A stretch of 64,000 nucleotides of DNA, from IMG/VR virus record IMGVR_UViG_3300017991_000048, positions 186,001-250,000 of that record. The stretch is one strand, 5' to 3'. Below the pieces are notes generated by a model, which searched no databases, had not been told where the DNA came from, and saw only the letters and a list, made by a program, of their open reading frames with translations. Positions within the stretch are counted from its first letter, which is position 1. Each line of letters opens with the position of its first letter. The DNA comes from a virus. Shown here one piece after another: positions 2,700 to 60,385 of this stretch. The position numbers were made by a program, and so were the translations under genes.

Positions 2700-2703
2700 G
2701 ATT

Positions 2704-5534: not shown

Positions 5535-5650
5535 GTCTCTTTACTCTCAACAAGAAAAGATGTACCGGCCCAAGAGAAATTCGCATAGGGTAAGAAGTTG
5601 AACTGGGGGTGCTGCTTGTCCTTCTTAAATAATGCCAACTTTTCTGCCAT
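5531..5650 (-). CDS. 39-residue microprotein in glycan cassette
   Basis: This small frame runs from ATG at 5650 to TGA at 5531. It fills the space between two recognised genes exactly. The ATG lies one base after the TAA of the upstream gene, and the stop overlaps the ATG of the following glycosyltransferase as ATGA. AGG lies eight bases before the start. The product begins MAEKLALFKKDKQHPQ and ends FLVESKET, with an aromatic centre (FNFLPYANFSW). I recognise no family. It may be a small partner of the neighbouring enzymes, a remnant of a larger gene, or mainly a device for translational coupling. Confidence 0.5.
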   Translation of the reverse strand: MAEKLALFKKDKQHPQFNFLPYANFSWAGTSFLVESKET

Positions 5651-5651
5651 T

Positions 5652-6524: not shown

Positions 6525-6546
6525 GATTCCTCACCGCTTTCTACAC

Positions 6547-7365: not shown

Positions 7366-7367
7366 CT

Positions 7368-8186: not shown

Positions 8187-8196
8187 TTACATCTCC

Positions 8197-11558: not shown

Positions 11559-14018
11559 CTAGGGGTATGGCCAGAGGCTCGGAGTCTGGGTTCCAAACAC
11601 AATAACTTCGATGGTAATGGCCACAACCGAAAGATCGATGGGTGTGGCTAGACTTGCTAAGAGACTGAACGCGGAAACATCAAAACTCCCATTAGCTTTA
11701 TTCAATGTTACAGTGCTATAAGCCCCACCAGCCGCGCTCTCTACACCATGAGCAACTGCATAAGCTGTGCTATCCATTCCCGATCCAAACGTAAATGTCA
11801 GCCTGTTATTAGCTCCAGCATAAGCAACGCTACCTATATTAAACCCATTACGGATAGTCGGACCACCACCACCGCACTCAATGAGCGCCCACATCTTAGG
11901 GATACTTGATCCAGCCAGAGTGTTCCCGAAACCCTGAGTCGGAAGAGGATTACAAGCAACATCCGATCCATCACCCCCGGCCCAAAAACCCATGACACCA
12001 CCAACTCCAAGTGCGTAACTGTAATTCTGAGCATATGTATGATTAAAAGCGCCTCCAATTCCAGTCTCAGCTTTGCCAGCTACACCGGGTCCTAAACCAT
12101 GGTGAAAACCATAAATCCCGGCCTTGTTCTGTTGGGCACCACCACTGTTACGCCTACATTCCCCGTATATACCGTGATGCCCTCTGTTGCCAAGATTGCC
12201 TGACTGTGCATAGATGCCCATATTCTGAGTGGACTGAGCGTGAAGGGCGACTCCAGCAGGAGCTGTATAAGCGGTAGTAGTAGGCGAGTATGCGTAGAGC
12301 GCAGTACCACCACCAGTATATGTAATAGCTTGAATACCTTTTCCTGCCTGCGTCGTACCACAGACGCCAACACCCGCATCGTTTCGACCATACACCCCAA
12401 AAGCCGCAACATCGTAGGCCATCCCGAAAACGCCATAGCCAACACCCGCAACGTCATTCTTTCCGTAAACCCCAACCATGTCAGCCGAATGCGAAAGACC
12501 TAAGATTCCAGTGTTCTTGGCGGACTCGGCATAAATCCCATATCTATCAGTGCCATAAAAATAACCGCCGTCAGTACCCCGGAAAATTCCACCGTGCCCC
12601 ACATATAGATCTACTGTAATCGCCCCGTTATTAGCGTCTGGTAGCGCCCCCAACGGAGAACCTGCCTTTACCGCCGTCGCGCTCACATACTGCGTTATAG
12701 TGTACAACCCATCATTGCCGCTACCACTTCCGTTGATCTCAACATTAAACCCGACATGCCCTGCGACAAAAGAAGGAGTACCAACGGTAATCAGCATATC
12801 CGGACCATCAGCAGTGAGATCGGCAGTGGTGGATAACTGTTTTGGTCCGCCACCTATACCGATCGTACCCGCGTTTTCTGATTCTGTTACAAGAGACTCT
12901 GTAGCGCCTTCGCCATAAAAAACGCCGCCTGCTCCTTCGACAGTTGGAAAAGCTACGGGCGGTCCAGAGTTTGCTGCGCCAAAGACGCCACACCCTACTC
13001 CTGGTCCTGCTTCACCAACTACTCCGGGCTTACCAGTATCACCGCCCCCAAAAACTCCAACACCTCCCATAGTTCCTGGTGCCCAAACAGGAGAAGCCGC
13101 GCCAGAAAAGAACCCGCCTGGACCAGTTAAACCTAAACCAACAACGCCAGCACCGCCTGAAAAAGTTGCCCAGTGGTCCGCTGCTCCGTCGCCCCAGAAG
13201 ACACCGCCCACACCTACTACAGTTGGAGGGGGAAACGGCATAGTTCCCCCTATCCCCCACACGCCCATTTTAGCCGTAACTGGAAGAAGTCCAGTCGCCG
13301 CACCGACAACTCCAATTCCTGGTTCAGCAGTTGTAGCACCTCCGTCTCCCTGTGCGGCAATACCAATGGCCGGGAACCCCAATCCAGGGTTAGACGCAAT
13401 TGATGTAATTCCGGTTACGTTAGCCGCAGCCGCTCCATTGGCGAATGCTTGAATGCCTACCTCTGTCCCTCTTCCAAATACACCCGCCTTCGATGTAGTT
13501 CCTATGCCAACGACACCCGCGCCGTCAGGCCCGGTCCCGCCAACTCCCATTACGCCTGAGTTATTAAAGCCTACTACAGGAGAAGGTTCGGTAGCGCCAA
13601 CGCCCCAGAAGACACCGCCAGTGCCCTCAACAGTAGGGGAGCCAACGGTTTGTGACCCAAACACGCCTACTTTAGATCCTCTGGCGGAAAGGGCTACATC
13701 ATCACCGGTTGCTGTTATAGTTTGTTTACCGCCCCAAGTGTTGTCTCTGGAGTCGAGCATCAAGTTGATGAAATCAGTGATGTCTGTCACCTGAGTCATC
13801 GTGGGGTCAGCGCCCAGGCTTATATTGGTGCCAGCTACTGCCGCCCCACCTATGGCGGTTGCCATGTGAGCATTTACAGGATCAGTAATATGGGCTTGTA
13901 AAGCCGCGTCTGAGCCACCACCGGCTGGAAAGAGCAAAGCACTTGCAGGGACCGTACCCCCTGGCAAACGACCGGGACCGGGTTGAACAACTGTTACTGG
14001 ATCTCTTGAAGATGGCAT
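11559..14018 (-). CDS. long glycine-repeat tail fibre protein
   Basis: Residues 1 to about 110 form an attachment part with DITDFINLMLDSRDNTWGGKQTIT, related to that of the 8197-9852 gene. The middle is a run of GVFG/GVVG/GVYG repeats with longer spacers, broken near residue 400 by a beta module (GLYTITQYVSATAVK) that also occurs in other virion genes here. The C-terminal 150 residues are a distinct tip domain (FGSGMDSTAYAV, IEVIVFGT). ATG at 14018 has GGAG seven bases upstream. The two related fibre genes on either side of speD suggest alternative or cooperating receptor-binding fibres. Confidence 0.65.
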   Translation of the reverse strand: MPSSRDPVTVVQPGPGRLPGGTVPASALLFPAGGGSDAALQAHITDPVNAHMATAIGGAAVAGTNISLGADPTMTQVTDITDFINLMLDSRDNTWGGKQTITATGDDVALSARGSKVGVFGSQTVGSPTVEGTGGVFWGVGATEPSPVVGFNNSGVMGVGGTGPDGAGVVGIGTTSKAGVFGRGTEVGIQAFANGAAAANVTGITSIASNPGLGFPAIGIAAQGDGGATTAEPGIGVVGAATGLLPVTAKMGVWGIGGTMPFPPPTVVGVGGVFWGDGAADHWATFSGGAGVVGLGLTGPGGFFSGAASPVWAPGTMGGVGVFGGGDTGKPGVVGEAGPGVGCGVFGAANSGPPVAFPTVEGAGGVFYGEGATESLVTESENAGTIGIGGGPKQLSTTADLTADGPDMLITVGTPSFVAGHVGFNVEINGSGSGNDGLYTITQYVSATAVKAGSPLGALPDANNGAITVDLYVGHGGIFRGTDGGYFYGTDRYGIYAESAKNTGILGLSHSADMVGVYGKNDVAGVGYGVFGMAYDVAAFGVYGRNDAGVGVCGTTQAGKGIQAITYTGGGTALYAYSPTTTAYTAPAGVALHAQSTQNMGIYAQSGNLGNRGHHGIYGECRRNSGGAQQNKAGIYGFHHGLGPGVAGKAETGIGGAFNHTYAQNYSYALGVGGVMGFWAGGDGSDVACNPLPTQGFGNTLAGSSIPKMWALIECGGGGPTIRNGFNIGSVAYAGANNRLTFTFGSGMDSTAYAVAHGVESAAGGAYSTVTLNKANGSFDVSAFSLLASLATPIDLSVVAITIEVIVFGTQTPSLWPYP
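12060..13690 (-). repeat. coding repeat array, GV-(F/Y/V)-G type
   Basis: This in-frame array of degenerate GV-F/Y/V-G repeats is separated by 15 to 30 residue spacers, longer and less regular than in the 8197-9852 gene. One unrelated beta module interrupts it at about 12605-12840. It is most likely a shaft of a trimeric fibre. Confidence 0.6.
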
Positions 14019-14028
14019 ACCCTAACTC

Positions 14029-16599
14029 CTACGTCTGTCTCTTGTTGAGTAAGTTGCCTTTGAGTCTAAATACACTCGCGGTGGTCGTATTGTTATTTAA
14101 ATCTGCATCAAAAAAGACACCGTTAGTTTCATCAAAGAGAGCGTACCGAATAAGCAATATAAGCACCAACTGCCCTTTGTAACCTAACGGGGTGTCCGCC
14201 GCTAATTCCGCAAGCACGGGAAGAATATCTTTGTGCCTGTCTGGATTACTTAGATCCTGAGCATAAGCGTTTGGTATATAGCCAGCGGGAACCGTCTTGA
14301 AATATGTCCGCCCTTCAACGTCAACATCACCCAAACCCCGTGTAAACTCCAAAGATTCCGGGTTGGCTACCATTGGAATATAGACCGGCAAATGTAATAA
14401 ACCAGTTTCAGCGTTGAAGTCAGCTACAGAGACTTCCGCTCGCGCCGACAGTTCAGATTCCCCTGAATAGGTATGCAAGTTACTTGGGAAAACCCCTCCG
14501 GTTTGAACATAAGCCGCCGAGAAAGGATAGCCTTCGTCCTGTGACCCGGAACCCGTTGTAAGAGCAAACATACTCTTGTTGGTTATCTTTGGAACAACAG
14601 TTAGTGTCCCGCTGAGCAGCGCATTACGGGCTGTCTGAGAAACTGCCGTCCGAAAATAAATTGTCATCTGCTCATCGTTTTGAGGCAGCGGTCGTCGGGC
14701 TGTGTAATCAACCTGCACAGTGTCTCCCGGAATAGTAGGTACTGCCAGGGTGATAACGATGCCAGAACTGTCCAAGGTGTAGGCGGCTGGAGCGGCATTA
14801 ACCAAAACGGAGATAATACTCTCGGCTCGTTCTGGGAGATAAACCGTCACACCTCCCACTTCAGTATCCCCTGCCACGATGAGAGTCAGAGGGACTGTTT
14901 CGTACTCAAGCTCAACCTCTCGATGTGGATAATCTAACGCTTGGTTGGCGAAAGCACTAAATGATACAGGAGGGGCTGCCGGTAATTGCGCTGGATTATT
15001 TACATAATAGCTGCCTGCCCCAAAATCATCAGTAGGAGTGTGAGACAAGCCCATACCCGTGGGGTAGCCCACAAGAAGCGTCACGTACAGAGGCTCATTG
15101 GTCAAGGCAGGGATCGCAGGCGGCAGAATTGTAAGGGTCATCGTCAATGGTGTGATAGGAGCCGCGCCCAAGCCGGTGACATTATAGAGTGGTACTTGAG
15201 CCGTTGAAGAACCAGGAGCCCCTACCCATTGCGCCCTTACTATATCCAAGAAACGTACATCAGCAGGAGCACGAGAAGCCCAATTAAATGCTGGATACGG
15301 ATAAACAGGGAGTGCGGTTGGATCGATTACAACCACATCCCCTGGTGCCCATCCGGGACCAGGAGCAGGTATTTCGACAGTAACCAACTCAAAAACTGAC
15401 CGATCCGAAAATCGTCTGCGAACTGCATCGAACTGTCCAGCGAAGTAACCAGCAGTGGTATCTCCAGTGGTAATCCCGTCGCCTGGAAGAACACCAATCT
15501 CATTGGCCATAAAGACAGTGGTGCCATTGTACCCACCGCCGCTTGGCGAAGTGGTGCCGATTTCTGAACGCAAAGTGTTATCGAGTAAGAAATTGGTGTT
15601 CTTTTCTAACAGTTCTGACAATGACCAGCCGCTAGGACTAACACCCGACCTAAGATCCACAAGATCTTCGGCTACAATCATGTCGTAAAACAGACCGTCA
15701 GGGCGGTCGGAGGGTCCAGGGGAAGCCACACCGCCGTTATGATTATCCAAACGAGCAAAAGCGTTGGTATTACGCCTGAACACCCCAAACAATGGAAGGG
15801 CGTACATATACCCATCAACTGTGTCCAAGGTGTTAGCCGGGTTTCCATCTCCCGCAATCCATAGTCCAGGATCGCCGTTGGCAGACTGGTTTACATATGC
15901 AAATGCTGTTGGGGCTCCATCCGGTGTCAGAGCATCCGGTGGGACGGTGTTCGCCACGACTATGGGGTCGTCAAGAGCGTAAGGATACGCAAAAAGATCC
16001 ACACCCTGTATAACCCGGAGTCGATATTGAATCTGCACACGCTTCGTTGTCTCGGCTCCGACATTGGTATCCAAAATGTCATCAGAATAGTTAAGGACCA
16101 AATCATTGGCCGGGTCGGTCTTGACGTTACCCTCTTGCCAGATACGTCCTGTTGCCGACTTGCCATCCGTGTCAGGAGAAGCGGAAATAAGTTTACGCCA
16201 AACTTCCAAGAGAACTACATCGGTACGGAGAGCACCCACGCCTGCTGGACTGGCTCCAAGATCCACCTCATTATGCCCTGTCGCGTTTGTATGGCGGAGT
16301 TTGACCAGCCAGCCGTTAACATGAGCAAGAATATCGTTGGGGATCTCAACATAATTGGCTGTGGCACTAGGGGCAAAAATAGCTCCAACTGAATCAGAAG
16401 TGTTAACAAAGTCGTTCGACAACCAACCTGACGGCATGGCGCGTCTCAAGTTGGCTTGGGCTGCACCTCCGTCCACGTCTTGGAGAAGATTATTCTCCTT
16501 GTCGAGAATAGGCTTACCGGATTGGTATACTACCGTCTCCCAAGCTCTGCCTTCGGGAACGTCGTAACCGCTAACGCCGGGACCAAAATCTTTTGTCAT
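14029..16599 (-). CDS. large virion structural protein
   Basis: This 856-residue protein has an N-terminal block WETVVYQSGKPILDKENNL, which I associate with tail or baseplate proteins of large phages. The rest is beta-rich (VYLPERAESIISVLVNAAP, TIYFRTAVSQTA). A GESELSA segment (about residue 710) recalls repeats in the 18517-23691 gene. Near the C-terminus, GYKGQLVLILLIRYALFDE forms a hydrophobic strand-helix. ATG at 16599 has GGAG eight bases upstream. No enzymatic motif. A baseplate-periphery or fibre-connector role is inferred from its place between the baseplate and fibre genes. Confidence 0.5.
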   Translation of the reverse strand: MTKDFGPGVSGYDVPEGRAWETVVYQSGKPILDKENNLLQDVDGGAAQANLRRAMPSGWLSNDFVNTSDSVGAIFAPSATANYVEIPNDILAHVNGWLVKLRHTNATGHNEVDLGASPAGVGALRTDVVLLEVWRKLISASPDTDGKSATGRIWQEGNVKTDPANDLVLNYSDDILDTNVGAETTKRVQIQYRLRVIQGVDLFAYPYALDDPIVVANTVPPDALTPDGAPTAFAYVNQSANGDPGLWIAGDGNPANTLDTVDGYMYALPLFGVFRRNTNAFARLDNHNGGVASPGPSDRPDGLFYDMIVAEDLVDLRSGVSPSGWSLSELLEKNTNFLLDNTLRSEIGTTSPSGGGYNGTTVFMANEIGVLPGDGITTGDTTAGYFAGQFDAVRRRFSDRSVFELVTVEIPAPGPGWAPGDVVVIDPTALPVYPYPAFNWASRAPADVRFLDIVRAQWVGAPGSSTAQVPLYNVTGLGAAPITPLTMTLTILPPAIPALTNEPLYVTLLVGYPTGMGLSHTPTDDFGAGSYYVNNPAQLPAAPPVSFSAFANQALDYPHREVELEYETVPLTLIVAGDTEVGGVTVYLPERAESIISVLVNAAPAAYTLDSSGIVITLAVPTIPGDTVQVDYTARRPLPQNDEQMTIYFRTAVSQTARNALLSGTLTVVPKITNKSMFALTTGSGSQDEGYPFSAAYVQTGGVFPSNLHTYSGESELSARAEVSVADFNAETGLLHLPVYIPMVANPESLEFTRGLGDVDVEGRTYFKTVPAGYIPNAYAQDLSNPDRHKDILPVLAELAADTPLGYKGQLVLILLIRYALFDETNGVFFDADLNNNTTTASVFRLKGNLLNKRQT

Positions 16600-16615
16600 G
16601 TTCTAAGCTCCCGAA

Positions 16616-17260
16616 CTAAAAGGTCAATCGCCACACAATCGTGATCGTTGAGGTCGCTGGCTTGTTGATAACTGGAAAGGTCAAGTAATTGACCTGTGTG
16701 TCGAACGCCGTCAGATCCACAGTTGCATCATAAGGTCCATTCGGAGGTAACACGGGCTTTCTGACACTCATGTTTGTGTCAACATTACCTCCGAAAAGAC
16801 CCATCTCCACCAAAGGCCCTACAGCTTCTGATTCAGCGAATGTGGTTGTAAAATCGACCACCTTCGTTGGGACTGCTGTTGGAACCCCACCCGCGTCAAT
16901 AAACTCTGTGTCAGCGAAAGTCTTACGGGCCAGTTCTGAGTAAAGCGACCTTTGGGTGTCCGTTGGAGCCGGTGGGTTCATCGGGTCCCACCCTGAATCT
17001 CCTGTGCCCACTGCCAACACAAAAATCCCGTGCGGTGGTTCCGCGTTATCCTTCATTAGACGGGCGATCAAAATTGAGGCATCTAAAACCACCAGATTGA
17101 TTTCCCGTTCTTCTTGTATCTCGCCGGTAGCCCCGTCCCGTAAGGTTATGAAAACATCGCCCCTAATCTTATAACCAGAAAAATCCTCTGTATATCTATT
17201 GCCCAAAGCAACTGACAGGAATCTTTCTTTAAACGCTCTGAAAAGTTCGATTTTCTTCAT
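16616..17260 (-). CDS. virion structural protein, unknown
   Basis: The N-terminal 40 residues are a basic helix followed by a beta hairpin (VFITLRDGATGEI). A stretch LVVLDASILIARLM leads into a beta-rich domain containing LAVGTGDSGWDP, a short motif I have seen in tail proteins of large phages, and MGLFGGN. The C-terminus (TITIVWRLTF) is a classic terminal beta strand. ATG at 17260 has GGGAG nearby. The 63 bases upstream of this gene hold only the ribosome site and no further reading frame that I can support. The likely role is a small baseplate or fibre-network component. Confidence 0.45.
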   Translation of the reverse strand: MKKIELFRAFKERFLSVALGNRYTEDFSGYKIRGDVFITLRDGATGEIQEEREINLVVLDASILIARLMKDNAEPPHGIFVLAVGTGDSGWDPMNPPAPTDTQRSLYSELARKTFADTEFIDAGGVPTAVPTKVVDFTTTFAESEAVGPLVEMGLFGGNVDTNMSVRKPVLPPNGPYDATVDLTAFDTQVNYLTFPVINKPATSTITIVWRLTF

Positions 17261-17323
17261 CTACATCTCCCTTAAGATGAACCTTGCAATCCAGGTATTC
17301 CATAAGAGAAAACAAAAGCTGAA

Positions 17324-18517
17324 TTATGGCTGCAAGTTGATAGTTACAACTGCACCGGGTGGGATTGGAGCCAGATTTTTAGCCGTAATAAAATACTCTG
17401 GCGGGGTTGCACCGTTATCAAATATTTTCCAAGCATCGCTGTTTTGCAGCGAGACGTAAGATAGATCCCAAATTTCCCTGACAGTGGCATCGCAAGGTCC
17501 GTCAACTGGCGGCACAACCGTATCACTCTGACGGTCCTCTAAAGTTATTGTGGCGTCCACAAGCCTTGGAAAAGCTGCCCACAGCACGTCATCCACGTTA
17601 TTCAAGGTGGTGACTCTGGTTGTCGGGACAACCCCGGCTCCATGTGTATGCAAAACGTAAGGATCTATGGGCTCTGGGAAATGGTATTCGTCGTAAGCCT
17701 TGGTGCAGACATGAACATCGTCTACCTGGATTATGGAGTTGGCAGCGGCTGTCTCAAGAGCCGGGGAAAAGAATACCAACCCTCCATGAATCCCATATAA
17801 TCCAGTTTGGACTTCCCCCGAAAACTGCTCCACTGGAATTTGGGTCCGTAATGTATTTTCGACCCACTGAAAGATATCGGTGGACGGAGATAACGGCTTT
17901 CCGGTCGCTGTAACGACCCCTGAACCTATCGTTAGCTGATAATGCCGCTCATCAACTAGGTCTTCACCTAACGTTAGGACCACAGACCGAACATCTGTGG
18001 ATTGTTCCGCCTGGACCGACGAGACAGTAATAGGATCAAGGCTCAGATCCGTTAGAATGTACTCCGATGGGTCTGTGAGAGCCGCGTTCTGAAACATTGC
18101 CTCAGTGAACACAGCGCGAACACGAGTTTTCCTAGTGGCAACAGCGAAAAATGTAGGAGAGACCGGGAAGCCCAAAAAAGTGGCAGAGTCCAGGAGAGGG
18201 TCTAACGGCTGTCCGAAATACCCCCTGGCTTGATCAACTGTAACCGTGTAAAGAACATCCGTCTGAGGGTCCGTAATCAGAATGACCGTCTGGGCTGTTT
18301 CTTGGATTACTGAATGAACAGTCAGTGCCGGGAAGATGGAATAATTAGCTGGAGTCAGAAGGGGCGGGAATACCTCATCAAACAGAGTCGTATAACGAAC
18401 CCGGACAAGCGTAGGCCCAAGTGAAGTAGCTGATTCCAAGCCGTAAGGCGGGAAAGCACTTCCATACGGCCCCGAACCGTATTCACCACTACCATATGGG
18501 CCTATTGTATCAACCAT
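17324..18517 (-). CDS. virion protein with Ig-like modules
   Basis: The 397-residue protein opens with a GPYGSG-type repeat (residues 6-20), then two modules of SbsA/Ig-like character. These have strands such as TRKTRVRAVFTEAMFQ and RSVVLTLGEDLVDERHYQLTI, in which a residue pattern of functional-edge strands alternates with loops. The C-terminal part has a DDVHVCTKAYDEYHFPEP loop and VREIWDLSYVSLQ. ATG at 18517 overlaps the stop of the upstream giant gene as TAATG. It is likely a virion surface or fibre-connector protein. No enzyme motif is present. Confidence 0.5.
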   Translation of the reverse strand: MVDTIGPYGSGEYGSGPYGSAFPPYGLESATSLGPTLVRVRYTTLFDEVFPPLLTPANYSIFPALTVHSVIQETAQTVILITDPQTDVLYTVTVDQARGYFGQPLDPLLDSATFLGFPVSPTFFAVATRKTRVRAVFTEAMFQNAALTDPSEYILTDLSLDPITVSSVQAEQSTDVRSVVLTLGEDLVDERHYQLTIGSGVVTATGKPLSPSTDIFQWVENTLRTQIPVEQFSGEVQTGLYGIHGGLVFFSPALETAAANSIIQVDDVHVCTKAYDEYHFPEPIDPYVLHTHGAGVVPTTRVTTLNNVDDVLWAAFPRLVDATITLEDRQSDTVVPPVDGPCDATVREIWDLSYVSLQNSDAWKIFDNGATPPEYFITAKNLAPIPPGAVVTINLQP

Positions 18518-21500
18518 TAAGAGTCCACATAAATCTGAATAGAAGCCGTTCCCGGATCTCGAACCAATCTATAATCGTGATACGCGCCGTCATAAAAATC
18601 GAACGGTATACCACCTACTGTCTTTCCATTGTTCAGGTCCACTGCGAGAACATAACGCTCTCCTAGAGGTGTGGTTACAAAAGCTAATCCAACCGTTACA
18701 CCAGGAGATGAGAATCCGAGCCGAATCTGACTGTCTCCAAGTCCGCCTGTGGAGTCTTGGAGCACCTTGAGCCTGAACAACACTTCTGTCTGAAGACTGA
18801 TTGCGTCCGGTAACGGAGTATTGTTCCGGTACGTGGTCCGTGTTCCCACGATATCGGTGCCGTAGGTCAAGATCCCGGCAAAAGCGGTAGCAAACTGATG
18901 GGATGGATCATCGCTGACTCTTGACCAGGGAGTTATAGCCGTGGGGTCGTCCTCTGGTAAAACACTACCATCGTAGTTCAAACAAACCCGATCATTGAAA
19001 TACAGCGTATCGTATCGTGGATTACAAGCATCGCTGAAAGGAGCGATCAAATCCGGAGTACCTGTGCTTGTTTCAATAACCTTCAAACAGTTATACAGCA
19101 CATCGTCAGGAACAATAATTTCGATCTTCTGTGATGCCTCATTCAGCAAAAACCCTTGGCTATTTAACACGTCTTCAGGGCGATTAAGACCGACAGTTGA
19201 GGTCAGAACCGGCGTGGGGTTTCTAACTTCATACGTTTGAGTTGACGGGACCAGGGGCGTATCGTCGTTCAACAGAGTAAAAGCTACAAGATTTGGATCA
19301 CGAAGGAAGTCTGGCTCAGTTTGAGGCGGAATGCCCTGTGACTCGCTCCAGAAGTTTGTATGAGTATGTGGGATAGTAGTCCGATGGTGCTCATAAGACG
19401 CCATTATGTTCCGTTGATTAAGAACTTGATGGTGTGGAACAATTCCCAACTCAGACTGAAAGCGTACAGCGCCCAAACGTACATAATCCCATGAAGTCTG
19501 AGAAATATTTGTAGGGTCAAAAGCGCCCCACAAAACAGACGGTAGACGATTGGCGACGGTCCAGGCAATTCCGTTTATGCTCCGGGGAAGATCCAGGCTG
19601 CTGTAATCGGCATGAATCCAAGGGTCAACAAGAGAGTCAAGAAAGACTGAAACTCCACCAGAAGAGCTTTTTACAATCCTATACTTATGGAAAGCAGACC
19701 AATCTGTCTCAATTACTATTCGATAGTCTACTTCCGAAGGTTGGACTGCGAAAGCTGTTGAAGTAGTAAGCTTCGTTACGTCTGCACCAGGGGCAACAGC
19801 GGCAATGGTATAAACACCTTTGTTTGATCCGTCATCAACAACTAGCTGCTCGCCAACCAGAACACCCGCTGCTATAAAATCAGCTTGTGGGTCTGTGAGG
19901 GTGTTCCCGGCAACAGCAGCCCCGCGTCCCGTTGTTCTCAAAGGAAGATGATACCCAATCAAAGAATCTGAGTCAGTGCCCTTCCAGATACCAGCAAACT
20001 TTTTGACATTATCGCTTGCTTGCCAAACTCGCCAAAAGTTCGAGTACGCCCACAGCACTGTGGATCTTGCCAGCACACTAAGCGGAGTAGCCGAGCCGAA
20101 AGACACCACGCCCACTGCTGAGAAGGGCGGGACATCGAAATCACTATAATCTATGGAGCCTGTAAAAACGCCATCGATGAACAAACTTACCAGATTACCC
20201 GACGTGGATTTGATAGCGCGGTAAGTATGAAACTCGTTATCAAACCAATCAAAAGCGAATCTACCGGCCACTTTAGGAACGCCATCGGAATGAAATGTAA
20301 CATACCGTTGGCCCGTGATCTCTTCAAACATGACTCCAACAGACCGTAAGCTGTCATACACAGAGGCCATAACTCCAGTGTAACCAGCAATGTCTGCTGT
20401 ATAGCTCAACACCTGGGTTCTGAACTCAAAGATATAATCGGTGTCATGGCCGACTGTTCTGGTGTCTGTGCTTACCGGTTCCGAATCGTCCAAATGATAA
20501 ACAAGACCATCGGTAGTCGTTGTATCCTCTATCCGCAGGTGTTGGCCGACCATGGTTGCTGAGGCACCACCGGTCTTGTTCCACAAGTAAGGCTCAAACT
20601 CTTCCGGAAAAGCTCTGCCCCCATAGCTAAACTTAGGGGCAGCCCGGTCCGGAAAAAAGCAAAGCTGAATTAAGCGATTCCCATCGTCGATAGCCGCCAA
20701 AACTGCGTTCGGCGTGATACCGTGAGTATGAGTATACAAAGCTAAGTTTACATCTAAAACCGTATCATAAGCTTCTTCAAGAAGAGGCTCGATACGTGAA
20801 TACCCTTTAAAATCCCCGCTGATAAGACCCGCTGCACTTGACGAAGGCAGATCCGTTGCACTGGTAGAGTCAAGCAGTAAGAAATCGCTGCTCAGAATGG
20901 TTTCTGTCCCGTGGAACCCTACCGGAGTCCATGGTTGGGAAGCGTCTTCTGGCGGCGTTGTGGCCTCATAAGAAATATAGATCGAAGGGGCCGTTTGCAA
21001 TGGATTGATCGGAATCGAGGTGTATCTAACAAAATTCCATGTAGACGTGTTTTGCGCCTCTCGTGACAGGGAGCCAAAAAAGGCACCTTGCAGTTCATTG
21101 AAGGGGTCATTCAGTTCCTCAAGAAACGGCAACTCATCGGGAGTCACTTGTAAAACGGGAGTAATCGAACCATTTATATATACGGTGATAACCCCGGTTC
21201 GATCCCGGAATATACGATAGCTACTGAGAACACTCCAATCTTGATCGGTCGGCGCATCTGTGGGACTGCCAGAGGCATCCAACCCTCCTGTCCAGGCTGA
21301 GATGTCTGAAGGGTCGTTTCCCGACCCGGCTTTCAAAATCCCTATCTTCTTAACTCCACCTTCATCTAAAAATCCGACTACAGTAGCCTTTTCATCGTCC
21401 GCATAGCCGACTGCAACCCCTGTGAATACTCCTTCTGCCGTCAAAACAGCATCAACCATCATTCGCCACGCAATGGCAAAAACATGCTGGTATGTCAGAT

Positions 21501-23691
21501 CGATAGATCTGGTCCAGTACATGGGGTGCCCACTTGGGAAAGGCCCAGTAGTAGTGTCAACCACCACAAGTTGAGTGCCGACAATCGAGGCAGTGCCCAT
21601 GCCCTTTCTTTCCCACGGGGCGGTCGGGTCGGATTCCGGTAGTGTGATAGGCTGGTAATTGACAAATTCCTCCGCCAATGTGCGTGACATAGGCGGGAAA
21701 GCGATTTTATGAACCGGAGAGTTCAGTAGCAGCAGGTTTGGGTCGTTCAAAGCAACCGAGTAGGCCCTCTCATAGGCCCGGTACTTGAGATCCCGTTGTA
21801 ATGGTTGGTCAATCCCTGCCCTGATATCCAAAGGCACAAAAATGTCCGGTTGGACAAGCGTATTGTTATAACGGTACTTGTGCTGAGTGGAGTCTACCGG
21901 ACGGTTATTATCTCGGTTCCAATTGTTCAGCCTAAACTCTTTTGAATTCAATCGGCGGAGATCAACGACGGGATTACAGATATAACAATAGTCCACATCC
22001 ACGGTATCCGTTGGATCAGGAACCGTGGACAATACGATTTGACCCATCAGCCCTACAACGGCATCAGGAGCAACCGGAGCGCCATTGATTCTAACTGTAA
22101 CATCGGTGGGGTCGTCAGCAATTTCACCATTTCTAGGGTCAAAAAGTTCCCACGTGATAGACCCACTCGCCGGGTCCGGTATGCTAAAGCTTGCCACTAC
22201 CTTAATGACTGTGGCCGAAACTCGTTGGGTGATCTTGAATGTACCAGCGTTAATAACGGTTCCCGTCAATGTAATGTAAAGACCTACATGTGACGGTAGG
22301 ATAGCCGCTGTTGGAAGGGTTAGCTGAGTGGCGCTGTTTACCGTGGCTGTGGTGCCACCTTGTATACTTTCCGCTGGTTTCGTAATCGGACCCCGATCTG
22401 TAAAAATACTACGAGCCGTTATCGCCGGGGTGCCTGTGAAAATCGCTTTATTAAACACAGGACTGAGAGGGTTGCCAGCCGCGTCGTAAGGCGTGGATGT
22501 GGCGTTTACGGTCAACTCATAAGAGCCAGACCCTATTCCCGCTGTCGTCAACATTACTTCTGTGGAAGAGACGGTTTGGACAGTTTTAACTAATACTGTA
22601 CTAGGCCCTGTGATTCCATATTCTCCGGAATCTAACAGTACGGAATCGATCCGCATGTCGTCCGAAAAAGTGACAATTATCTGACCGTCTTCTAACTGTT
22701 CAGCCTGTGTTACCTGGGGCCGATCCGCTACCGCTGTATAAGTCTGAGAATCCTCATAAACCGCTCCAGAACTGTCGTAGAGCCCCTCAACTTCTAAGGT
22801 ATAATCTTTACCTCCGGTGGGCTTTGAGGTTGTTAGAAAGACGCCTTCGAGCCCTCTGGTATGAATCCAGGGGATAGCACCGTTCTGCGGGTCCAACACC
22901 ATCAAATCCCGGTCTAACTCTACCGAACCGTCAGAATAAACCTGAACGACCTGAGCAAACGGAATGTTGTTGGCAGCGCTTTGTAAGGATATGAAGTCTC
23001 CGACCTGGATCGGCATAGAGGCTTCGACCAGGGTAAGCTTCCGGGAAAAAGTGGAGATATGCCTCAGGTCCGCCTGAAAGCTGGAGTCGCCTTCGAGGAC
23101 TGCCGATGGTTCGGGAGCCGCTACAAGTCCAGATTCCCCAGAAAGTGATGCCTGAATCTCCTTGGCAATAGTAGGGGTTGCCGAGAAAGAAGAGTCTCCG
23201 CTGAAAACATCAGCACGATAAAGCTCGCCCTGATCAGTTATAGACGAAGAAGCCGCCATGGTGCTTTCAGCAGCCAAATCTTGATTTACGGTTGCCGAGA
23301 AACTAGAAGCACCTTCAATTATCGGTATCGGTTCGGGGTATGCCGATAGCTCAGACTCCCCGGAAAGTCCAGCTTCAATAACATTTGTAGCTAAGGGTAC
23401 AGCCGTAAACGAGGACTCTCCTTGCACCTCCATCTCAAGTGGCGTGGTCGAAGACAACTCCGCTGTCATGGACGAAGAAGCTACCATCGCGCTCATATTG
23501 TCAGAGTAGTCTCCGACAAAGCCCACGCCTGATTGGATTACCGTATACTTTAGTCCCACCTCTTGGATGGTCACGGGAACAGCATCCGTCCCTGGTTGAA
23601 TCTGATAATTGGACACATTTTGAGCGTCTTGGAAGGACAAGAGACTTCCGAACGTTACATCCAATACAATATTGTCGCTGACTACAATCAT
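18517..23691 (-). CDS. giant virion protein with repeat, Ig-like and LamG-like modules
   Basis: This 1,724-residue protein is modular. Residues about 70-230 are repeats around GESxLxA and SSFxA. Residues about 340-450 include an SbsA/Ig-like module (QIIVTFSDDMRIDS). Further on are two copies of the GxYxIxxV beta module found in other genes here, and three to four LamG-like lectin modules with strands such as YRIFRDRTGVITVYINGS and YRAIKSTSGNLVSLFIDGV. The last such module stops at SIQIYVDS, about 45 residues short of its siblings. It shares TAATG with the next gene. It is probably a long fibre or surface protein that binds glycans. The receptor is unknown. Confidence 0.6.
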   Translation of the reverse strand: MIVVSDNIVLDVTFGSLLSFQDAQNVSNYQIQPGTDAVPVTIQEVGLKYTVIQSGVGFVGDYSDNMSAMVASSSMTAELSSTTPLEMEVQGESSFTAVPLATNVIEAGLSGESELSAYPEPIPIIEGASSFSATVNQDLAAESTMAASSSITDQGELYRADVFSGDSSFSATPTIAKEIQASLSGESGLVAAPEPSAVLEGDSSFQADLRHISTFSRKLTLVEASMPIQVGDFISLQSAANNIPFAQVVQVYSDGSVELDRDLMVLDPQNGAIPWIHTRGLEGVFLTTSKPTGGKDYTLEVEGLYDSSGAVYEDSQTYTAVADRPQVTQAEQLEDGQIIVTFSDDMRIDSVLLDSGEYGITGPSTVLVKTVQTVSSTEVMLTTAGIGSGSYELTVNATSTPYDAAGNPLSPVFNKAIFTGTPAITARSIFTDRGPITKPAESIQGGTTATVNSATQLTLPTAAILPSHVGLYITLTGTVINAGTFKITQRVSATVIKVVASFSIPDPASGSITWELFDPRNGEIADDPTDVTVRINGAPVAPDAVVGLMGQIVLSTVPDPTDTVDVDYCYICNPVVDLRRLNSKEFRLNNWNRDNNRPVDSTQHKYRYNNTLVQPDIFVPLDIRAGIDQPLQRDLKYRAYERAYSVALNDPNLLLLNSPVHKIAFPPMSRTLAEEFVNYQPITLPESDPTAPWERKGMGTASIVGTQLVVVDTTTGPFPSGHPMYWTRSIDLTYQHVFAIAWRMMVDAVLTAEGVFTGVAVGYADDEKATVVGFLDEGGVKKIGILKAGSGNDPSDISAWTGGLDASGSPTDAPTDQDWSVLSSYRIFRDRTGVITVYINGSITPVLQVTPDELPFLEELNDPFNELQGAFFGSLSREAQNTSTWNFVRYTSIPINPLQTAPSIYISYEATTPPEDASQPWTPVGFHGTETILSSDFLLLDSTSATDLPSSSAAGLISGDFKGYSRIEPLLEEAYDTVLDVNLALYTHTHGITPNAVLAAIDDGNRLIQLCFFPDRAAPKFSYGGRAFPEEFEPYLWNKTGGASATMVGQHLRIEDTTTTDGLVYHLDDSEPVSTDTRTVGHDTDYIFEFRTQVLSYTADIAGYTGVMASVYDSLRSVGVMFEEITGQRYVTFHSDGVPKVAGRFAFDWFDNEFHTYRAIKSTSGNLVSLFIDGVFTGSIDYSDFDVPPFSAVGVVSFGSATPLSVLARSTVLWAYSNFWRVWQASDNVKKFAGIWKGTDSDSLIGYHLPLRTTGRGAAVAGNTLTDPQADFIAAGVLVGEQLVVDDGSNKGVYTIAAVAPGADVTKLTTSTAFAVQPSEVDYRIVIETDWSAFHKYRIVKSSSGGVSVFLDSLVDPWIHADYSSLDLPRSINGIAWTVANRLPSVLWGAFDPTNISQTSWDYVRLGAVRFQSELGIVPHHQVLNQRNIMASYEHHRTTIPHTHTNFWSESQGIPPQTEPDFLRDPNLVAFTLLNDDTPLVPSTQTYEVRNPTPVLTSTVGLNRPEDVLNSQGFLLNEASQKIEIIVPDDVLYNCLKVIETSTGTPDLIAPFSDACNPRYDTLYFNDRVCLNYDGSVLPEDDPTAITPWSRVSDDPSHQFATAFAGILTYGTDIVGTRTTYRNNTPLPDAISLQTEVLFRLKVLQDSTGGLGDSQIRLGFSSPGVTVGLAFVTTPLGERYVLAVDLNNGKTVGGIPFDFYDGAYHDYRLVRDPGTASIQIYVDS
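23055..23500 (-). repeat. coding repeats, GES-x-L-x-A / SSF-x-A type
   Basis: Six to seven alternating units of about 20 to 27 residues with cores such as LSGESELSAYPEP, LSGESGLVAAPEP and GDSSFSATP lie near the N-terminus of the giant protein. Related short segments occur in the 14029-16599 gene. Confidence 0.6.
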
Positions 23692-23697
23692 AACCTT

Positions 23698-24513: not shown

Positions 24514-24520
24514 TACCGCC

Positions 24521-28018: not shown

Positions 28019-28026
28019 TCGAAAAC

Positions 28027-29142: not shown

Positions 29143-29144
29143 AA

Positions 29145-29876
29145 CTACTCTTGAGGTTTTACAAGACCATCCAAAGTACGTTCATACGATCGTGCTGTGG
29201 CACCCTTCTCACCCGGCATGTAAGGTGCCACAGGAGCCCGTGCGAACTTCCCATGGGGATCACGCTCTTTATCATCCCTTGTGATCGCCATATATTGACG
29301 ATCATTCGCCAGCGTCTCCATCTCACGGATGTAAAACTCCAAAGATCCGTCTGTTTCCGCACTGGCCTTAAGTAGCGTTAATTCGCTAATTTCAGCTTCT
29401 AACTGTTCTGCATAATCTATGGCTCGTTTAATCTTACGCTCCAGGGCATCCTTCCGCCGCTGGAGATCCCCACTGACCCACTTTCTCATACTCTGCATCA
29501 GAAGCGAGGATTCAGCGTCAGAAAGCCCTAAAACACCCACAACCTCGCCGTTGCTCAAAAGCTGAGGGGCCGAAGTCTCGTCTCCAGCCAACTGGAACAC
29601 AGGTTGTGAAGTGGTGCGAACCTGTAAATCGTACTCAGCATCGCCACCTAAAACCTGATAAGTCGCGAAAAGCTTCCCAATGTAGGTAGTTGGATCGTAC
29701 TCGAAAGCTGTGGGTATCCCACCATCGTCATAAGCAAAGGCCAAGCTGCCAATACGGTTGTGCTCCGCTGTAAGATGAGCAATCCTAGCATCTATCAATT
29801 CAACCTGATCCTGTACATATTCCTTGAACCGGTTGAACTGACTGACTGTAAAAGTGCCGTTGAACTCGAAAGCCAT
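29145..29876 (-). CDS. baseplate-region protein with coiled coil, unknown
   Basis: Residues about 3-45 form a helix (FNRFKEYVQDQVELIDARIAH). A compact middle part includes VLGLSDAESSLLMQSMRKW. Residues about 130-175 form a strong coiled coil (RRKDALERKIKRAIDYAEQLE). The C-terminal 40 residues are basic and disordered (DPHGKFARAPVAPYMPG). No family is recognised. Its place between the gp25-like gene and a 719-residue protein suggests a baseplate part, perhaps a trimeric spacer. Confidence 0.45.
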   Translation of the reverse strand: MAFEFNGTFTVSQFNRFKEYVQDQVELIDARIAHLTAEHNRIGSLAFAYDDGGIPTAFEYDPTTYIGKLFATYQVLGGDAEYDLQVRTTSQPVFQLAGDETSAPQLLSNGEVVGVLGLSDAESSLLMQSMRKWVSGDLQRRKDALERKIKRAIDYAEQLEAEISELTLLKASAETDGSLEFYIREMETLANDRQYMAITRDDKERDPHGKFARAPVAPYMPGEKGATARSYERTLDGLVKPQE

Positions 29877-29903
29877 TTTAGCTCCTACTGTTAGACCGCA
29901 CTA

Positions 29904-32063: not shown

Positions 32064-32231
32064 CTAACTACCGTACTGAAGCTTTTCCAGCTTCCGTTTT
32101 AGACCTGAAATCTCCGCTTTGGTTGCAGCGATCGCAAGTTCACATACTTCTTTCATTCGTTTATTGATTTCGAAATCCCGTTTTTCCCATTCGGGTTGGG
32201 GTTTCTCTTCTTGCTCTTTCTCTTCTTGCAT
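32064..32231 (-). CDS. 55-residue coiled-coil microprotein
   Basis: The frame starts at ATG 32231, whose first base is the last base of no other codon but overlaps the TAA of the giant gene as TAATG, and ends with TAG just before the ATG of the next gene. It thus fills the gap between two genes exactly. The product is one charged helix (MQEEKEQEEKPQPEW, then INKRMKEVCELAIAATKAEI). The exact fit between neighbours argues that it is translated. It is probably a small adaptor or coupling protein of the baseplate module. No family is recognised. Confidence 0.6.
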   Translation of the reverse strand: MQEEKEQEEKPQPEWEKRDFEINKRMKEVCELAIAATKAEISGLKRKLEKLQYGS

Positions 32232-35200
32232 TAGCTTTCCTCAACAGCTAGTAGTTTGATTAGCTGATTGTAAAAATCCTCTTGGGCCTGAACCCGGTTT
32301 TCTTCCGCTGTAGCTTGCTGTACGATCAAACCGCTCTTCAAGTTGATTCTCGTATCTATCCACGCATATCGACCATCATAGAACTTATCCGTATTAGCCA
32401 AGACGTCCTCAACAGTTATAACATCCGCTGGTAAGGTGTTGTTTATACGGTCGTCCACAAGAACATCTCTGGCATCTAAGTCGGAGGTCAAAGTTCCACG
32501 TGCGAACGTGTCTGGGTCCGGGGCTCCTAATCGAATGACGGGAACCGACGTTGTAATAAGAGTCTGAAAAGCTGCGGCACTATTAATCAACGCCTGGATA
32601 CTCTGGTAGATAGCAAAAAGTGCCTGTGCTGTTTCTCTGGATGCTCCAAACAAACTCACAATCCGATATGACATTCCCACTTGAGTGGCAGGAAAGACCG
32701 GATCAACCTTTAACTGTGTCTCGGAAATGACGTCCGTGATTTGATAGACATTGGCGTTGGCCCCTGTCTCAACGTACACACAGTACGCTAATGATACCCC
32801 TGAGGTAATAAAGGTTCCATTGACGTCATCAAGCTCCGGTTGTGTAGCTGTAGTTTGACCAGTGGCACTCGTAAAGACGTCCGTAAAAACTTGATTGAGA
32901 AAGTCTAAAATATAGGTCTGTTCATCTGGATAAAGGGCCAACTGGCCTGATAAAGCATCGTCTAACGCCTTCAGGTAATCGCCAGAAGAGCCGCCGTAAG
33001 TAGCTAACGAGTCATCAATTCGATAAGAACCACCCAGTAAAGACGGCATGGCGGGGTCTAAAGTCAGATCAGTGTTGCTCAGAACAGCGACAATCTGGCG
33101 GCGTACTCCAACATTCAAACCCCCTGTCATAACCACCGTGTACCCGACTTTTGCAGTAGTTAAAAATGAGGCACCAGCGTCATTGAGTGTTATGGGGTCT
33201 GGGAACGCCGCCACGCCTGTTACTGTCGAAGCACTGACAGCAATTTCATATGTAAAGTTAAAGTCTTGAACGGGGAAAGGCGTATCGACCGTGATTGTGT
33301 TGGGAGTGACAGCGGTAACCCGCACAAACGGCGACGGTCCATTCGGCCCTGTAAGGATGCGAACCAAATCGTGTACTTCTGGTAATGGGGGAGGGTAAGC
33401 CCCCAATAGATCTGTAATGGTGGTTCTGGCCGGGTCGAGATCTCCCTGGCTTACAAGAGGGGGTGTTGTTATACTACGTAAGATCCCCGTAGGATTGTGT
33501 ATAATCAAATCCTCTGTAAGCAGATAGCCATTTGATTCACTGTTAGGGTCTGGAGATTGGATGGGGAAACTCAAATCTCCGTCATCATCTGCGACACCAC
33601 CGTAGAGGGCTGGAAACTTATCAGGTGCGGTCAAAGTATTGACCAAATTAATGACACCCGAAAGAGCTTGTTCCTTTATCAAAGGCGTATTCGAAAGTGC
33701 TGCAATCGCTTCAATATAAACAATCTGTCCGGTCTTGCTGTTGAAAGCGTAATCCCTACCAAAAAGATAATAGGTTAGATTATCCGGGTCGCCTGGAGTG
33801 GAGGTATCAATTGGTGACCTGTATATAGTTGTTCCCACATCTGCAACGTCTGCCAACCCGGTGATAGTAAGAGCGTCTGGTAATCCAGGACCGCCCGGTG
33901 TGATCCCTGTGACGGTAACTGGCGAAGACGAGTCATTTATAAAAGTACCGTCTCGTCGTCTAACAAGACATTCCATACCCGTTTGAAAAGGTGGCCGCGC
34001 AAAATCTTGACTCCCTTCCGCCTCATCCACCACAAGAGTGCCCGAACCCGAATATACCGTGGATTCAACTACAGTTGCCCAAGCCAATCTTGTGTGCAAC
34101 CGCAACACTGTCGTAATGTCCGTAGAACCTGTATCTAGTACTTCATCTCCGGTTTCTGTATCATCCGTAACCGCTGAAACTCCGTAAAAGGCTTTTGAGG
34201 TGGGGTAAAAACGGCTCAAAGAGCCTGAGATGTAATATTTCTGGTAAGTACCAATAGACGTAACTTCAAATGGCGGGTACGTTATTTCATAAGGAGCCGG
34301 GGATATTTGAATAGCGTCATCTATCTGGTTGGCAGCCAAGACTCTGTATTTCCCATCCGTGGCTGGCGGAGGGGCCGGTAATGGAGGGGCCAAAGTGAGG
34401 GTTAGAGAGGTGGGCACCCCTACGATCTCTCGCTTTTCATACTTATTTGCCCCACTCAAAACCTCAAGAGTTCGTCCGATCAAATCAGTTGTAAACTCTG
34501 CGTCAATATCGAGTAGGGTCGTATTGTTTGGAAATGTGCCTTTACCAGAAGGATTGACAATGCCCGTAGTCCCGTCAAATAGCAACTCCCCGTCATTGTT
34601 GCCAACCACTCGACCATCAAGAGCCCTCAGATAAGCCTCAAGCAAGTTAACACTATCGTTATAAAAGAGAAGAGTTGACCGTGCTATAATATCCTGATTG
34701 GCAAGATGCTTTTCGTCAAAGTATAATGAGGGGCGTCCCTGTTCATACAACTGAGGCTGTGACGCATTTGAAGTTTGTGGTCCGGAAGATCCGCTACTCG
34801 CTTCTGCCGATATCTCCTGAGCGTACTCCGCCCGGAAGTTGGTCATTGTCTCTACCCGGTAATAGAAAGTATCGGAGGACAAGATGTAATAATCGGCACG
34901 TAATATTTGACCGGCCAGTCCATTAAGAGTGTTTGGAACGACTTGATGAGTATACGATGCCCGTAAGTTTATACCTGTCTCATATACTTGACGCCCCGTG
35001 TAGAAGATGGAGAACTCTTCACTTGGGCCAAGAGCTTCCGCAAAAACAACTCGCCCGGACTCATCGATTGTGAACTCCAAAGGAGCGCTGAGAATGACCC
35101 CCGGTTCATTTTCAACTCGCCTATAAACAACATAAGGTTCTGTCAAAACCGGGTCTTGACTTGTTTTGACCTCTACTGTGGGCGGCTCAAATACAGGCCG

Positions 35201-38200
35201 CACTGAGTACATTAGTATCTGAGAACCCGATATATATTGGCGAAGCGCGTTCGCGGTCATTGTAACCGTTGTCCGATCCATATCAGGATCATAATCTGCA
35301 CCGGACACTTGCAAAAAGTCTGTAAAAGAAGAGGTTCCGTCTGTAAACATCAAGACGGTGCCGGTGCGGTAAGCTAAAGTCCGATCCCCAGAAACAAAAA
35401 ATGAGTTACTACCCCGTGCGACAGCTTCATAAGCTTGGAGTTCCACAGTGAAATACGCCGGGACTAACGGAGCGCTTACAATTGGAGTTACGCCAGAGGT
35501 AGTATAGAGCGTCGGATCGTTGTAAGAATTCTGAAACTCCTGGTTTCCATAAAGTGTGACTGTTGTCTCATCCGTGGTCGGGTTATAGACAGAACTCCCG
35601 ATAAGATAGATTTCTTCATTCTCTATACGAAGCAAATAGTCAGGTGGAAAGCTAGCCGTATGATCCCCATGCACTGTGAACTCATTATTAGGATTCCCAG
35701 TGTCGTCCAACTCACTGATATTGACTTCCGACGTTAGAATAGGTGGATTAAGTACCGTGATCGTCTTTTCGCCACCCACAGCTTGAGTCACATGGTAATC
35801 TATATAAACTCGTTCACTCGGTTCCACCGTTGCCCCATGAGGCAAAGCGTCTGTAATTTGATCATCAGCCAAAAAGGTGATGGTAGATGCCGTTGTATCA
35901 ACCGTACATTGAACGCCAAGCTCTTGAGGACGACCCCCTCTGAAAACCGCTGGCACCGGATCATCGGCCACGTCTAACCCGGCGATGTTAAAACTCAATG
36001 TAGAGGTCGGAAGTGGGTGATCTTGAGTAACCTCTTTCCGAATCAAAAACGTGCCATACTCCTGAACAGGCGGATCAGGGGATGTCGGAGGGTCCGTTGA
36101 GGGCGGTTGTGTTGTATACGTGACCAGTATCTCTTCCAGCGATAGCATCCGATCCGTGAACTGGATCAAGCCAAGCCCCGCTGACATTGTATAGTCAACT
36201 TTAGGGACCAACTCTCGCATCCAAAATACTTCCAGCCCTAGATCTGCCGTTGAGAAGTTCAGATTACCGGTAGCTTCGCTTATCTCTACTGTTCCAGCAG
36301 GAGGACTCGTAAAGTCTCCGTCTGTCGGCACCAAAACAACCGTCGCAAAATAAGCAGCGGAAGCAGCCCCAAACCGAAAACCTGAAGACGTGATGTAAAT
36401 TACAGGTATATTTAAACGAGGGGCATTGGTCGCAGTTCCAATGGACCGGAGCCGCTCAACCTTGGTTGAGGGGTCGGGGAGGGTCAATTCATCGAAGTAA
36501 CGGTCTGCAAGGATTTCCCGACTTCGCCTGACGTTATAAATAGCACCCACAACAGGAGCCGGGGCCGGTACATCCGTCTCTAACTCTGTCGGAGAAACAA
36601 CATTGACGACCGTATAAACGCCTTCAGCAGCGCTGGAAGCCACTTCTATCAAGTACCCAGGCTGCACTCCAACAGCTACAAAGTCCGCTGCCGGGTCCAC
36701 AAACGCAGTACCTGAGAACGCGGCAATTCCTTCGGCTACAATCTGACCATGGTTATTGATCAAAGAAACAACACCGGGGATTGGATCAAAGAGAGCGGAA
36801 TCCCCAAGCACCAGGGGTGTGTAAGTTCCAGTTCCCGGTCCGGTTTCAATCTCAAGGACAAGATTACTGGACAGTACCAACGGGTCCGGTAATGCAACGT
36901 CAGAAGAAGGCTGGACCAGCGGAACCAAAAGCTGGTTCTTACGCTGAGCAAAGTACAAAGTCCGCTCATCAAAATCTATATAATAACCAAGTCCCACCGG
37001 AGGTGAAGCTACGTCGAGTCGAGGAAAAGGGTCGGCTGTATATGTTCCGGTTCCCTGCTCGACCCGAACCACAAGCGGGTAAGTCGTAGCGTCATCGATA
37101 GGGGTAGACGGTAAAAATACTTGAGGGCTTTCGATTATAGGGTCAGCCCATGTCGCATTTTCAACGGAATAGATTGCCGTAACGTCCTTGAGTTCCAGAG
37201 AAGCGTCAAGATTCACAGGAGTACGTAAGAGCCTTACTGAAATCCCGCGCTCAATCGGAAGGTCGCCAAACACAACCGTTACAGTTTCACCGGAATGCCT
37301 GGATTGGTCTGAGTTTGAAAACTTAACATCACCAGTTACCGGGTCAACCTGGACCACACCGGTCTTTCCTGAGTTGAACAAAGCAGCCGGTATATAGCTG
37401 AACCGGGGGAACTGGTAGTAAGGTGTGGCATTAGGGAGTGAGAAAATCAGGTCCACGCCTTCAGGCGGTAACCCCGTTATGGCCGATGGTGTTGCGATAT
37501 CCCCCAAATTCTGCCGGGGCAGAGTCAAGTCCCTGGCAAAAAGAACACCGTCATAATAAACCGGAACGTCTGTGTAGGTAGTTATGTCTGTCGCATTGAA
37601 GTTCAACCGGCCTGTGTCCAAAGCCCACTGAACCGTTCCCTGCGGTGGTGGGGTAAAAGAAGACTCGTTTGGAACCTCAACGGTTGTAAGGTATAGGCTG
37701 AAGCCAAACCGTAAGAGTGGGTATTGCCCGGTCCCTGGTATCGGGTTCAATAACACTACCGTGTCATTCGGCACCCCTACGCTTCCGCCGTCTCTGAACC
37801 CAAAAAACTGCTGTTGCTGCCAACGGACAAGTTGACCGGAGTAGGTAATCAAATCCGTGTCGTGCCAATTCAAGTGCCCTGTTTGCAAAGACAATTCAGC
37901 GGTTCCTGATGGGACAGCCGCTGGCGGACTGAAATCGGTATCAAGGGCTACAATTGTTACAGTCCAGGCTGTACCGCTGCCTGTTGACCCCACTGAGAGC
38001 CGGTAAGGAGACGCCGCCACGGGAGCCGTTGGGTCAGGGGCACGGGCGACAAACCGGTTTGTATTGGCATCTACCGTGAGCAGTCCCAACTCAGTGACAG
38101 CGTTACCGGGTAGGGGCCGAAAACGACCAGCCTCAGCTTCGTAGTCAAACCGCTGTGTGATCTCATTTTTGGTCCAACCGAACTCTGCATTCACCAACAA

Positions 38201-39912: not shown

Positions 39913-39914
39913 TA

Positions 39915-60346: not shown

Positions 60347-60385
60347 AATCAATAGCTCCTACTCGTCAATTAAACCAAAGGATAT

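Follow-up and report, generated by a model that had tools for sequence, protein, structure and literature searches.

Do several long, presumed virion genes of an uncultured phage carry one and the same small domain, has that domain moved among them, and what might it do there? The window analysed here, a stretch of 64,000 nucleotides, covers bases 186001-250000 of the IMG/VR virus record IMGVR_UViG_3300017991_000048, which is 398,071 bases long. A sequence-only reading of it had proposed seven copies of a mobile beta module of about 65 residues in three genes. These genes, together with the neighbour that served as bait for relatives, are as follows.

P0001, 11559..14018, minus strand: host gene, fibre-like; its C-terminus matches phrog_11355 tail fiber (E 7e-5)
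P0002, 18517..23691, minus strand: host gene, large baseplate-region protein with LamG-like repeats
P0003, 32231..38392, minus strand: host gene, large baseplate-region protein whose C-terminal region is modelled as three barrels and long helices
P0005, 24521..28018, minus strand: neighbour and bait, baseplate J protein (PF04865, E 6e-15)

P0001, P0002 and P0003 are probably tail/baseplate proteins, a reading supported by the baseplate J neighbour, the fibre-like C-terminus and a transglycosylase-containing protein encoded in the neighbourhood at 45537-47357. Residues ~689-1724 of P0002 form several mutually related jelly-roll repeats, which we take to be LamG-like; short N-terminal repeats, SSFSA...SGES.L.A.PEP, can be read from its translation at residues ~85-210. 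The tail gene cluster also includes, immediately upstream of P0003, a gene for an Endonuclease VII/HNH-like protein (39475-39939, minus strand; phrog_3322 endonuclease, E 2e-33), a candidate free-standing homing endonuclease that might drive recombination locally. The window also encodes a UvrD-family helicase (56039-60352, minus strand) with a likely intein at residues 568-905; the Intein_splicing and Hint matches (E 6e-5 and 4e-4) are under the Pfam cut-off.

Nine copies of the module were located in the window. They are listed below by host protein and site, with the subgroup (A or B, see below) where assigned and the number of covered homologs that have the copy.

12609..12833, minus strand: P0001 copy; group B; leave-one-out E 6e-4; 44.7 bits to the P0002@445 class
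19714..19932, minus strand: P0002@1254; group A; leave-one-out E 2e-8; 24 of 26 homologs
22147..22359, minus strand: P0002@445; group B; leave-one-out E 0.29; 30 of 30 homologs
22864..23061, minus strand: P0002@211; group B; additional copy and the weakest; E 2e-6 by the iterated profile, E 59 by the group A profile
32657..32869, minus strand: P0003@1842; group A; leave-one-out E 2e-8; 40 of 42 homologs; the copy folded with AlphaFold2
33014..33220, minus strand: P0003@1725; group A; leave-one-out E 4e-5; 38 of 42 homologs; several inserts elsewhere belong to its class
33239..33445, minus strand: P0003@1650; additional copy; E 1e-15 by the iterated profile, held-out E 5e-5; a barrel in the model; 41 of 42 homologs
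34337..34549, minus strand: P0003@1282; leave-one-out E 0.74; lineage-restricted insertion in 2 of 42 homologs (only the window and L011)
36527..36730, minus strand: P0003@555; group A; leave-one-out E 3e-8; 42 of 42 homologs

All seven copies originally claimed translate, at the coordinates given for them, to the unit described, and all are genuine; only their count fell short, as P0003 has five copies rather than four and P0002 three rather than two. A whole-record search placed a tenth copy of this phage outside the window (G000:C1:176645-176854), in a 1451-aa protein whose N-terminal part is paralogous to P0004. The nine window copies share a mean of 28% amino-acid identity over 36 pairs, and no DNA similarity beyond 13 bases was found among them. 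Recent duplication within this genome was therefore rejected, and no recent jump is visible in it.

The profile built from the seven copies had zero matches at E<=1e-3 in reversed and shuffled sequence, and when the 319 ORFs of the window were shuffled 50 times its best score was about 10 bits. By itself it found 180 copies in 73 ORFs at 42 of the 48 related loci. When each of the seven was left out in turn, five were regained at E<=1e-3 (values above); the two that failed were the copies at 22147-22359 of P0002 and 34337-34549 of P0003. A larger profile that excluded the latter regained it at E 3e-10, while a larger profile built without them gave E 0.015 for the former and, with group A alone, E 7 for the P0001 copy. 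Together, profile and controls bear out the claim of one recurring module in P0001, P0002 and P0003.

The 48 related loci were found with baseplate J as bait. The iterated profile detected 268 copies in 88 ORFs of the window and these loci (270 on a rerun with the last profile). As the sequence-only reading had suggested checking, copy number varies in relatives: all 17 records searched in full (E<=0.01) contained the module, in 4-16 copies per record, although some records may be fragments. The earlier suggestion that it is specific to these long virion proteins is not supported, as fibre-like ORFs and a P0004-like protein also have it. Searches of a phage collection for cultured relatives with P0002 and P0003 (tblastn), and of IMG/VR with P0003 as bait, gave no matches; nor did single module copies as tblastn queries, one of which may have been masked by the low-complexity filter. 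No baseplate J was found in bacterial genome contigs searched for a host. The baseplate J search returned LR745208.1, Tunturi_5 and phage G as distant relatives; module copies were seen in LR745208 (E 3e-4 and 0.019), and no barrel module was detected in the stretches of Tunturi_5 examined. The tail cluster of that cultured phage (L058, PP885688.1, 7160-16436) includes two proteins that carry the annotation regulator of chromosome condensation, with no barrel module detected. At another locus (L065, G008:C1:65001-79000), two fibre-like ORFs (2-7084 and 7102-8943) have several weak repeats that are barrel-like but of a different type, with the pattern GTVTVTNGSATVTG...GQ.I.F...Y.I.SI...TSLTL (E 3e-5 to 0.03).

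For the comparisons that follow, 96 of 120 representative copies were aligned (alignment A2; 24 truncated or weaker ones were omitted), and the P0002 and P0003 families were limited to homologs with summed bits >180 (31 and 43, respectively). Removal of six short rows and duplicates left 33 rows in the insertion-site alignment, and removal of L028 left 32 for alignment A3. The baseplate J tree comprised 47 proteins, two of 49 rows being omitted as shorter than 900 aa.

Held-out searches weakened the idea of a single uniform family and split the module into two subgroups. Group A comprises the P0003 copies and P0002@1254; group B comprises the P0001 copy, P0002@445, P0002@211 and the fibre ORFs. 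A group A profile trained only on the 146 copies from P0003@555, @1725, @1842 and P0002@1254 recovered, at E<=1e-3, every insert at P0003@1282 (2 of 2), @323 (3 of 3), @463 (1 of 1) and @658 (6 of 6) and at P0002@621 (5 of 5) and @1597 (2 of 2), with best E-values for these held-out inserts down to 9e-18. It regained 15 of 42 P0003@1650 copies at the same threshold, and only 4 of 31 copies at @445, none of 11 at @211, 3 of 15 classed as 'other' and none of 4 fibre-type inserts. The held-out values of only 0.015 and 7 given above mark the P0002@445 and P0001 copies as a more distant subgroup. The two subgroups were rejoined only by profile-profile comparison. With HHalign, group A matched the P0002@445 class at 96.2% probability and, at class level, the P0002@211 class at 96.4%; the P0002@445 class in turn matched the fibre class, with the P0001 copy included, at 98.6%. 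Compared directly, group A and the fibre class reached only 45%, and the best of 41 non-module slices used as decoys reached 6.1%. For class assignment, the P0001 copy was in the fibre-class training set, and the assignment was then redone without P0001. Since profile-profile comparison joins groups A and B, we use a single name for what appears, from these alignments, to be one superfamily.

The structure of one unit, another check proposed at the outset, could be predicted confidently. AlphaFold2, given the P0003@1842 copy with 95 others, predicted a six-stranded barrel (pLDDT 94.2, pTM 0.81; strands 3-10, 16-18, 33-37, 44-53, 56-60 and 67-76). In a model of the C-terminal 418 residues of P0003 (1636-2053; pLDDT 91.4), three barrels are interleaved with long helices. 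Foldseek comparison of the barrel with the PDB gave nothing at E<=1e-3; its first matches include the K1F and phi92 endosialidases (E 0.036-0.11, ~10% identity). Among predicted viral structures there were 8 matches at E<=1e-3, including tail fibre and baseplate J-like proteins, with TM values of at most 0.89 over the module. VIA-align matched the RcGTA hub (6tba_7A) at Z 8.2 with the single barrel and Z 8.8 with the @1725 barrel (residues 163-252, 2.2 A over 79 residues), the R4C hub (8gtc_P) at Z 8.0 (residues 162-246, 2.3 A over 78 residues) and LKA1 gp49 (4ru4) at Z 7.7 (residues 285-372, 2.7 A over 74 residues). Other matches were the Arthrobacter phage Bridgette decoration protein 8eci (8.1), tailspike 24qj (8.1) and a lambda tail tip protein (7.5). 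Unrelated Uba1 barrels reached Z 7.8, within ~1 Z of the phage barrels, and ATPase barrels came within ~2; because these follow so closely, the structural match is to a common arrangement. In RcGTA, R4C and LKA1 the residues aligned coincide with domains that the respective papers name as oligosaccharide-binding or insertion domains (PMC7296036, PMC10276861, PMC5701251), and members of the former in RcGTA and T4 are given there as sharing <19% identity (PMC7296036). The LKA1, RcGTA and R4C entries were not among the matches listed in PDB profile searches up to E 10. On these models, the likeness of the module to the three barrels suggests, at modest strength, a resemblance of fold, short of common descent.

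Searches with the seven-copy profile and the 96 copies gave no convincing match in Pfam or NCBIfam. The best single matches are taken as chance likeness; YDG (E 0.0018) and CoaZ_rpt_PGGG (E 1.8e-4), for example, each matched 2 of 96 copies. The case for a KOW or nucleic-acid binding domain is weak, as the KOW model matched 2 of 96 copies with a best E of 0.1; in the PDB profile search, eL14 chains covered half the profile, the best of them at E 0.012. No Ig or Big family was among the best 25 of 44 Pfam families for the 96 copies, or found for the seven; none of the 50 structure matches listed is described as Ig, and a Big_5 match falls on P0008, outside any barrel module. Tail-fibre families of PHROGs were touched at E<=0.01 by 13 of 96 copies (phrog_1980, best 3.6e-5) and 4 of 96 (phrog_1591, best 5e-4), and phrog_12714 by 7 of 96 (best 5e-7). 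A literature search, which did not reach subscription papers, found no published description of the barrel module. The description of the module as an undescribed domain family thus holds for the curated databases; against it stand these weak PHROGs contacts and the resemblance of the fold to known barrel insertion domains.

When copies were mapped onto their homologs, two kinds of site were apparent. The module is near-universal at P0003@555 (42 of 42), @1650 (41 of 42), @1725 (38 of 42) and @1842 (40 of 42), as well as at P0002@445 (30 of 30) and @1254 (24 of 26). It is in a minority at P0003@323 (3 of 37), @463 (1 of 41), @658 (6 of 42) and @1282 (2 of 42) and at P0002@621 (5 of 28) and @1597 (2 of 21), where 1-3 changes each are needed on the baseplate J tree. 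At the three sites that were viewed (P0003@1282, P0002@621 and P0003@658), presence and absence are clean, the flanks align on both sides and the insert is exactly one module. P0003@1282 needs two changes on the tree, because the window's sister, L014/L010, is without the copy; the pattern reflects either loss or independent gain. P0002@211, present in 10 of 27 homologs and requiring 7 changes, is patchy probably through an effect of detection rather than turnover.

Profiles made for each class of site assigned 226 of 230 core copies to their own site in a held-out control. Four of the five rows at P0002@621 matched the P0003@1725 class best, at 54-67 bits against 33-35 for the next class, the remaining row (L049) belonging to the @445 class, and both rows at P0002@1597 were best to the P0003@555 class (53 bits, next 39-45). 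The P0003@1282 (2 rows) and @323 (3 rows) inserts fall in the @1725 class; those at P0003@658 split between classes and are mostly ambiguous. Inserts of P0002 are thus placed in classes of P0003, so that copies have moved between genes at some time depth. With the near-universal sites and the clean minority insertions, the earlier claim of a mobile module with varying copy number is upheld.

What the barrels do can be approached from the same observations. Chance resemblance among unrelated beta-rich stretches with a common VxxG/GxYxI pattern might be suggested by the two copies of seven that fail single leave-one-out and by the many unrelated barrels that match the fold, but it is scarcely credible in view of the empty shuffled and reversed controls, the strength with which held-out inserts were regained, the decoy-controlled HHalign results and the clean insertion of exactly one module; for group A it is already contradicted. 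We consider it somewhat probable that the module is a plug-in barrel of baseplate and fibre proteins, whose core copies are architectural and whose variable copies are accessories, and which reaches new sites by copying. Each copy would be an autonomous six-stranded beta-barrel of ~70 residues, plugged into loops of large baseplate and fibre proteins, or arrayed along them, in a clade of uncultured jumbo phages. The fixed core sites and the barrels woven between helices suggest architecture, in which the near-universal copies would pack and space the baseplate periphery. The minority inserts suggest surface accessories, which may be tolerated because a barrel in a loop would leave its host domain undisturbed. 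New sites would arise when ordinary recombination copies a barrel that is already present, in some cases in a different virion gene; this does not imply any dedicated transposition machinery. Stronger purifying selection on the core barrels was not seen: the fraction of non-module windows less conserved than the barrel was 0.14-0.22 at the four P0003 sites, and 0.04 and 0.43 at the two P0002 core sites.

That same lack of extra conservation relative to the rest of their proteins argues against the barrels being specific docking sites for other virion proteins, as in fibre attachment or wedge-to-wedge contact, each site with its own partner. We regard such docking as unlikely, even though fixed sites with site-specific classes and invariant residues in the @1725 barrel (R129 and Q131 of alignment A3) are what it would predict. 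The named barrels with a similar fold make glycan binding a fair rival, if one that we think clearly less probable than the plug-in reading: many weak adhesion domains on baseplate and fibres might together give avidity for a polysaccharide of the host capsule or surface, and their turnover might tune attachment. By analogy, the hub domains of RcGTA (oligosaccharide-binding by name) and R4C and the insertion barrel of LKA1 gp49 are associated with sugars (PMC7296036, PMC10276861, PMC5701251), and another paper describes the beta-barrel of the K1F endosialidase as a polysialic-acid binding site and a hotspot of host discrimination (PMC12632334). The K1F and phi92 enzymes are among the Foldseek matches, and P0002 also bears LamG-like repeats. 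However, the name of the RcGTA domain itself rests on structural resemblance, the LKA1 study describes the role of the insertion domain in enzymatic activity as unclear (PMC5701251), and a likeness of fold shows no function. In the 96-row alignment, conservation across copies is limited to residues that seem to determine the fold (G, F, D at turns, Y in strands); this pattern disfavours one shared ligand pocket. That the barrel is a self-contained cassette spreading between virion genes, with which a whole clade of jumbo phages would retune the valency of baseplate and fibres as copies of one glycan-contacting domain are added and removed, seems to us doubtful.

Returning to the plug-in barrel, small beta domains that recur in virion genes have precedents. 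Ig-like domains are reportedly promiscuous phage virion domains (Fraser et al.), and the BACON repeats of crAssphage are said to be a small beta domain recurring with varying copy number. Both resemble the module in being small beta domains that vary in number across virion genes, but they are different sequence families, and the Pfam families listed for it include no Ig or BACON model. Phage tail fibres, spikes and baseplate proteins undergo ongoing domain mosaicism, built largely on ECOD domains according to PMC10684548; the module differs from such shuffled domains in being a sequence family without a curated model.

The closest systems are the hubs of RcGTA (Rcc01696, residues 168-249) and R4C (residues 162-243), where, as here, a small barrel is inserted into a baseplate protein. 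Each hub protein has one such domain, whereas the module, from a different phage group, is present many times over in at least four proteins, and no sequence match between them was found. The barrel of the LKA1 gp49 tailspike (residues 283-370), described as six-stranded and, like the module, interrupting its host domain (PMC5701251), is a single copy beside a polysaccharide-lyase active site and is without detectable sequence similarity to the module. With the K1F and phi92 endosialidase tailspikes the likeness is that of a barrel in a host-recognition protein, with a weak score and ~10% identity; the K1F barrel has a described polysialic-acid site (PMC12632334). The module is predicted to share the six-stranded small barrel of the LKA1, RcGTA and R4C type (AlphaFold2 model, Z 7.7-8.8; Uba1 7.8), and it interrupts virion proteins at P0003@1282, P0002@621 and P0003@658 and, apparently, one LamG-like repeat at P0002@1254. 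Jumbo-phage tail proteins are mostly unannotated; across the window and its relatives the family assigns a fold to ~270 stretches, and it helps to delimit the domains of proteins of 2000 residues. Because a single domain is gained and lost at defined sites that can be placed on a tree, it becomes testable whether the barrels tune attachment or only fill space. The module is a real, mobile and uncurated sequence family, and plug-in barrels of phage virion proteins were already known; it is a fresh example rather than a new principle, with a shape that resembles the insertion domains of other phage tails.
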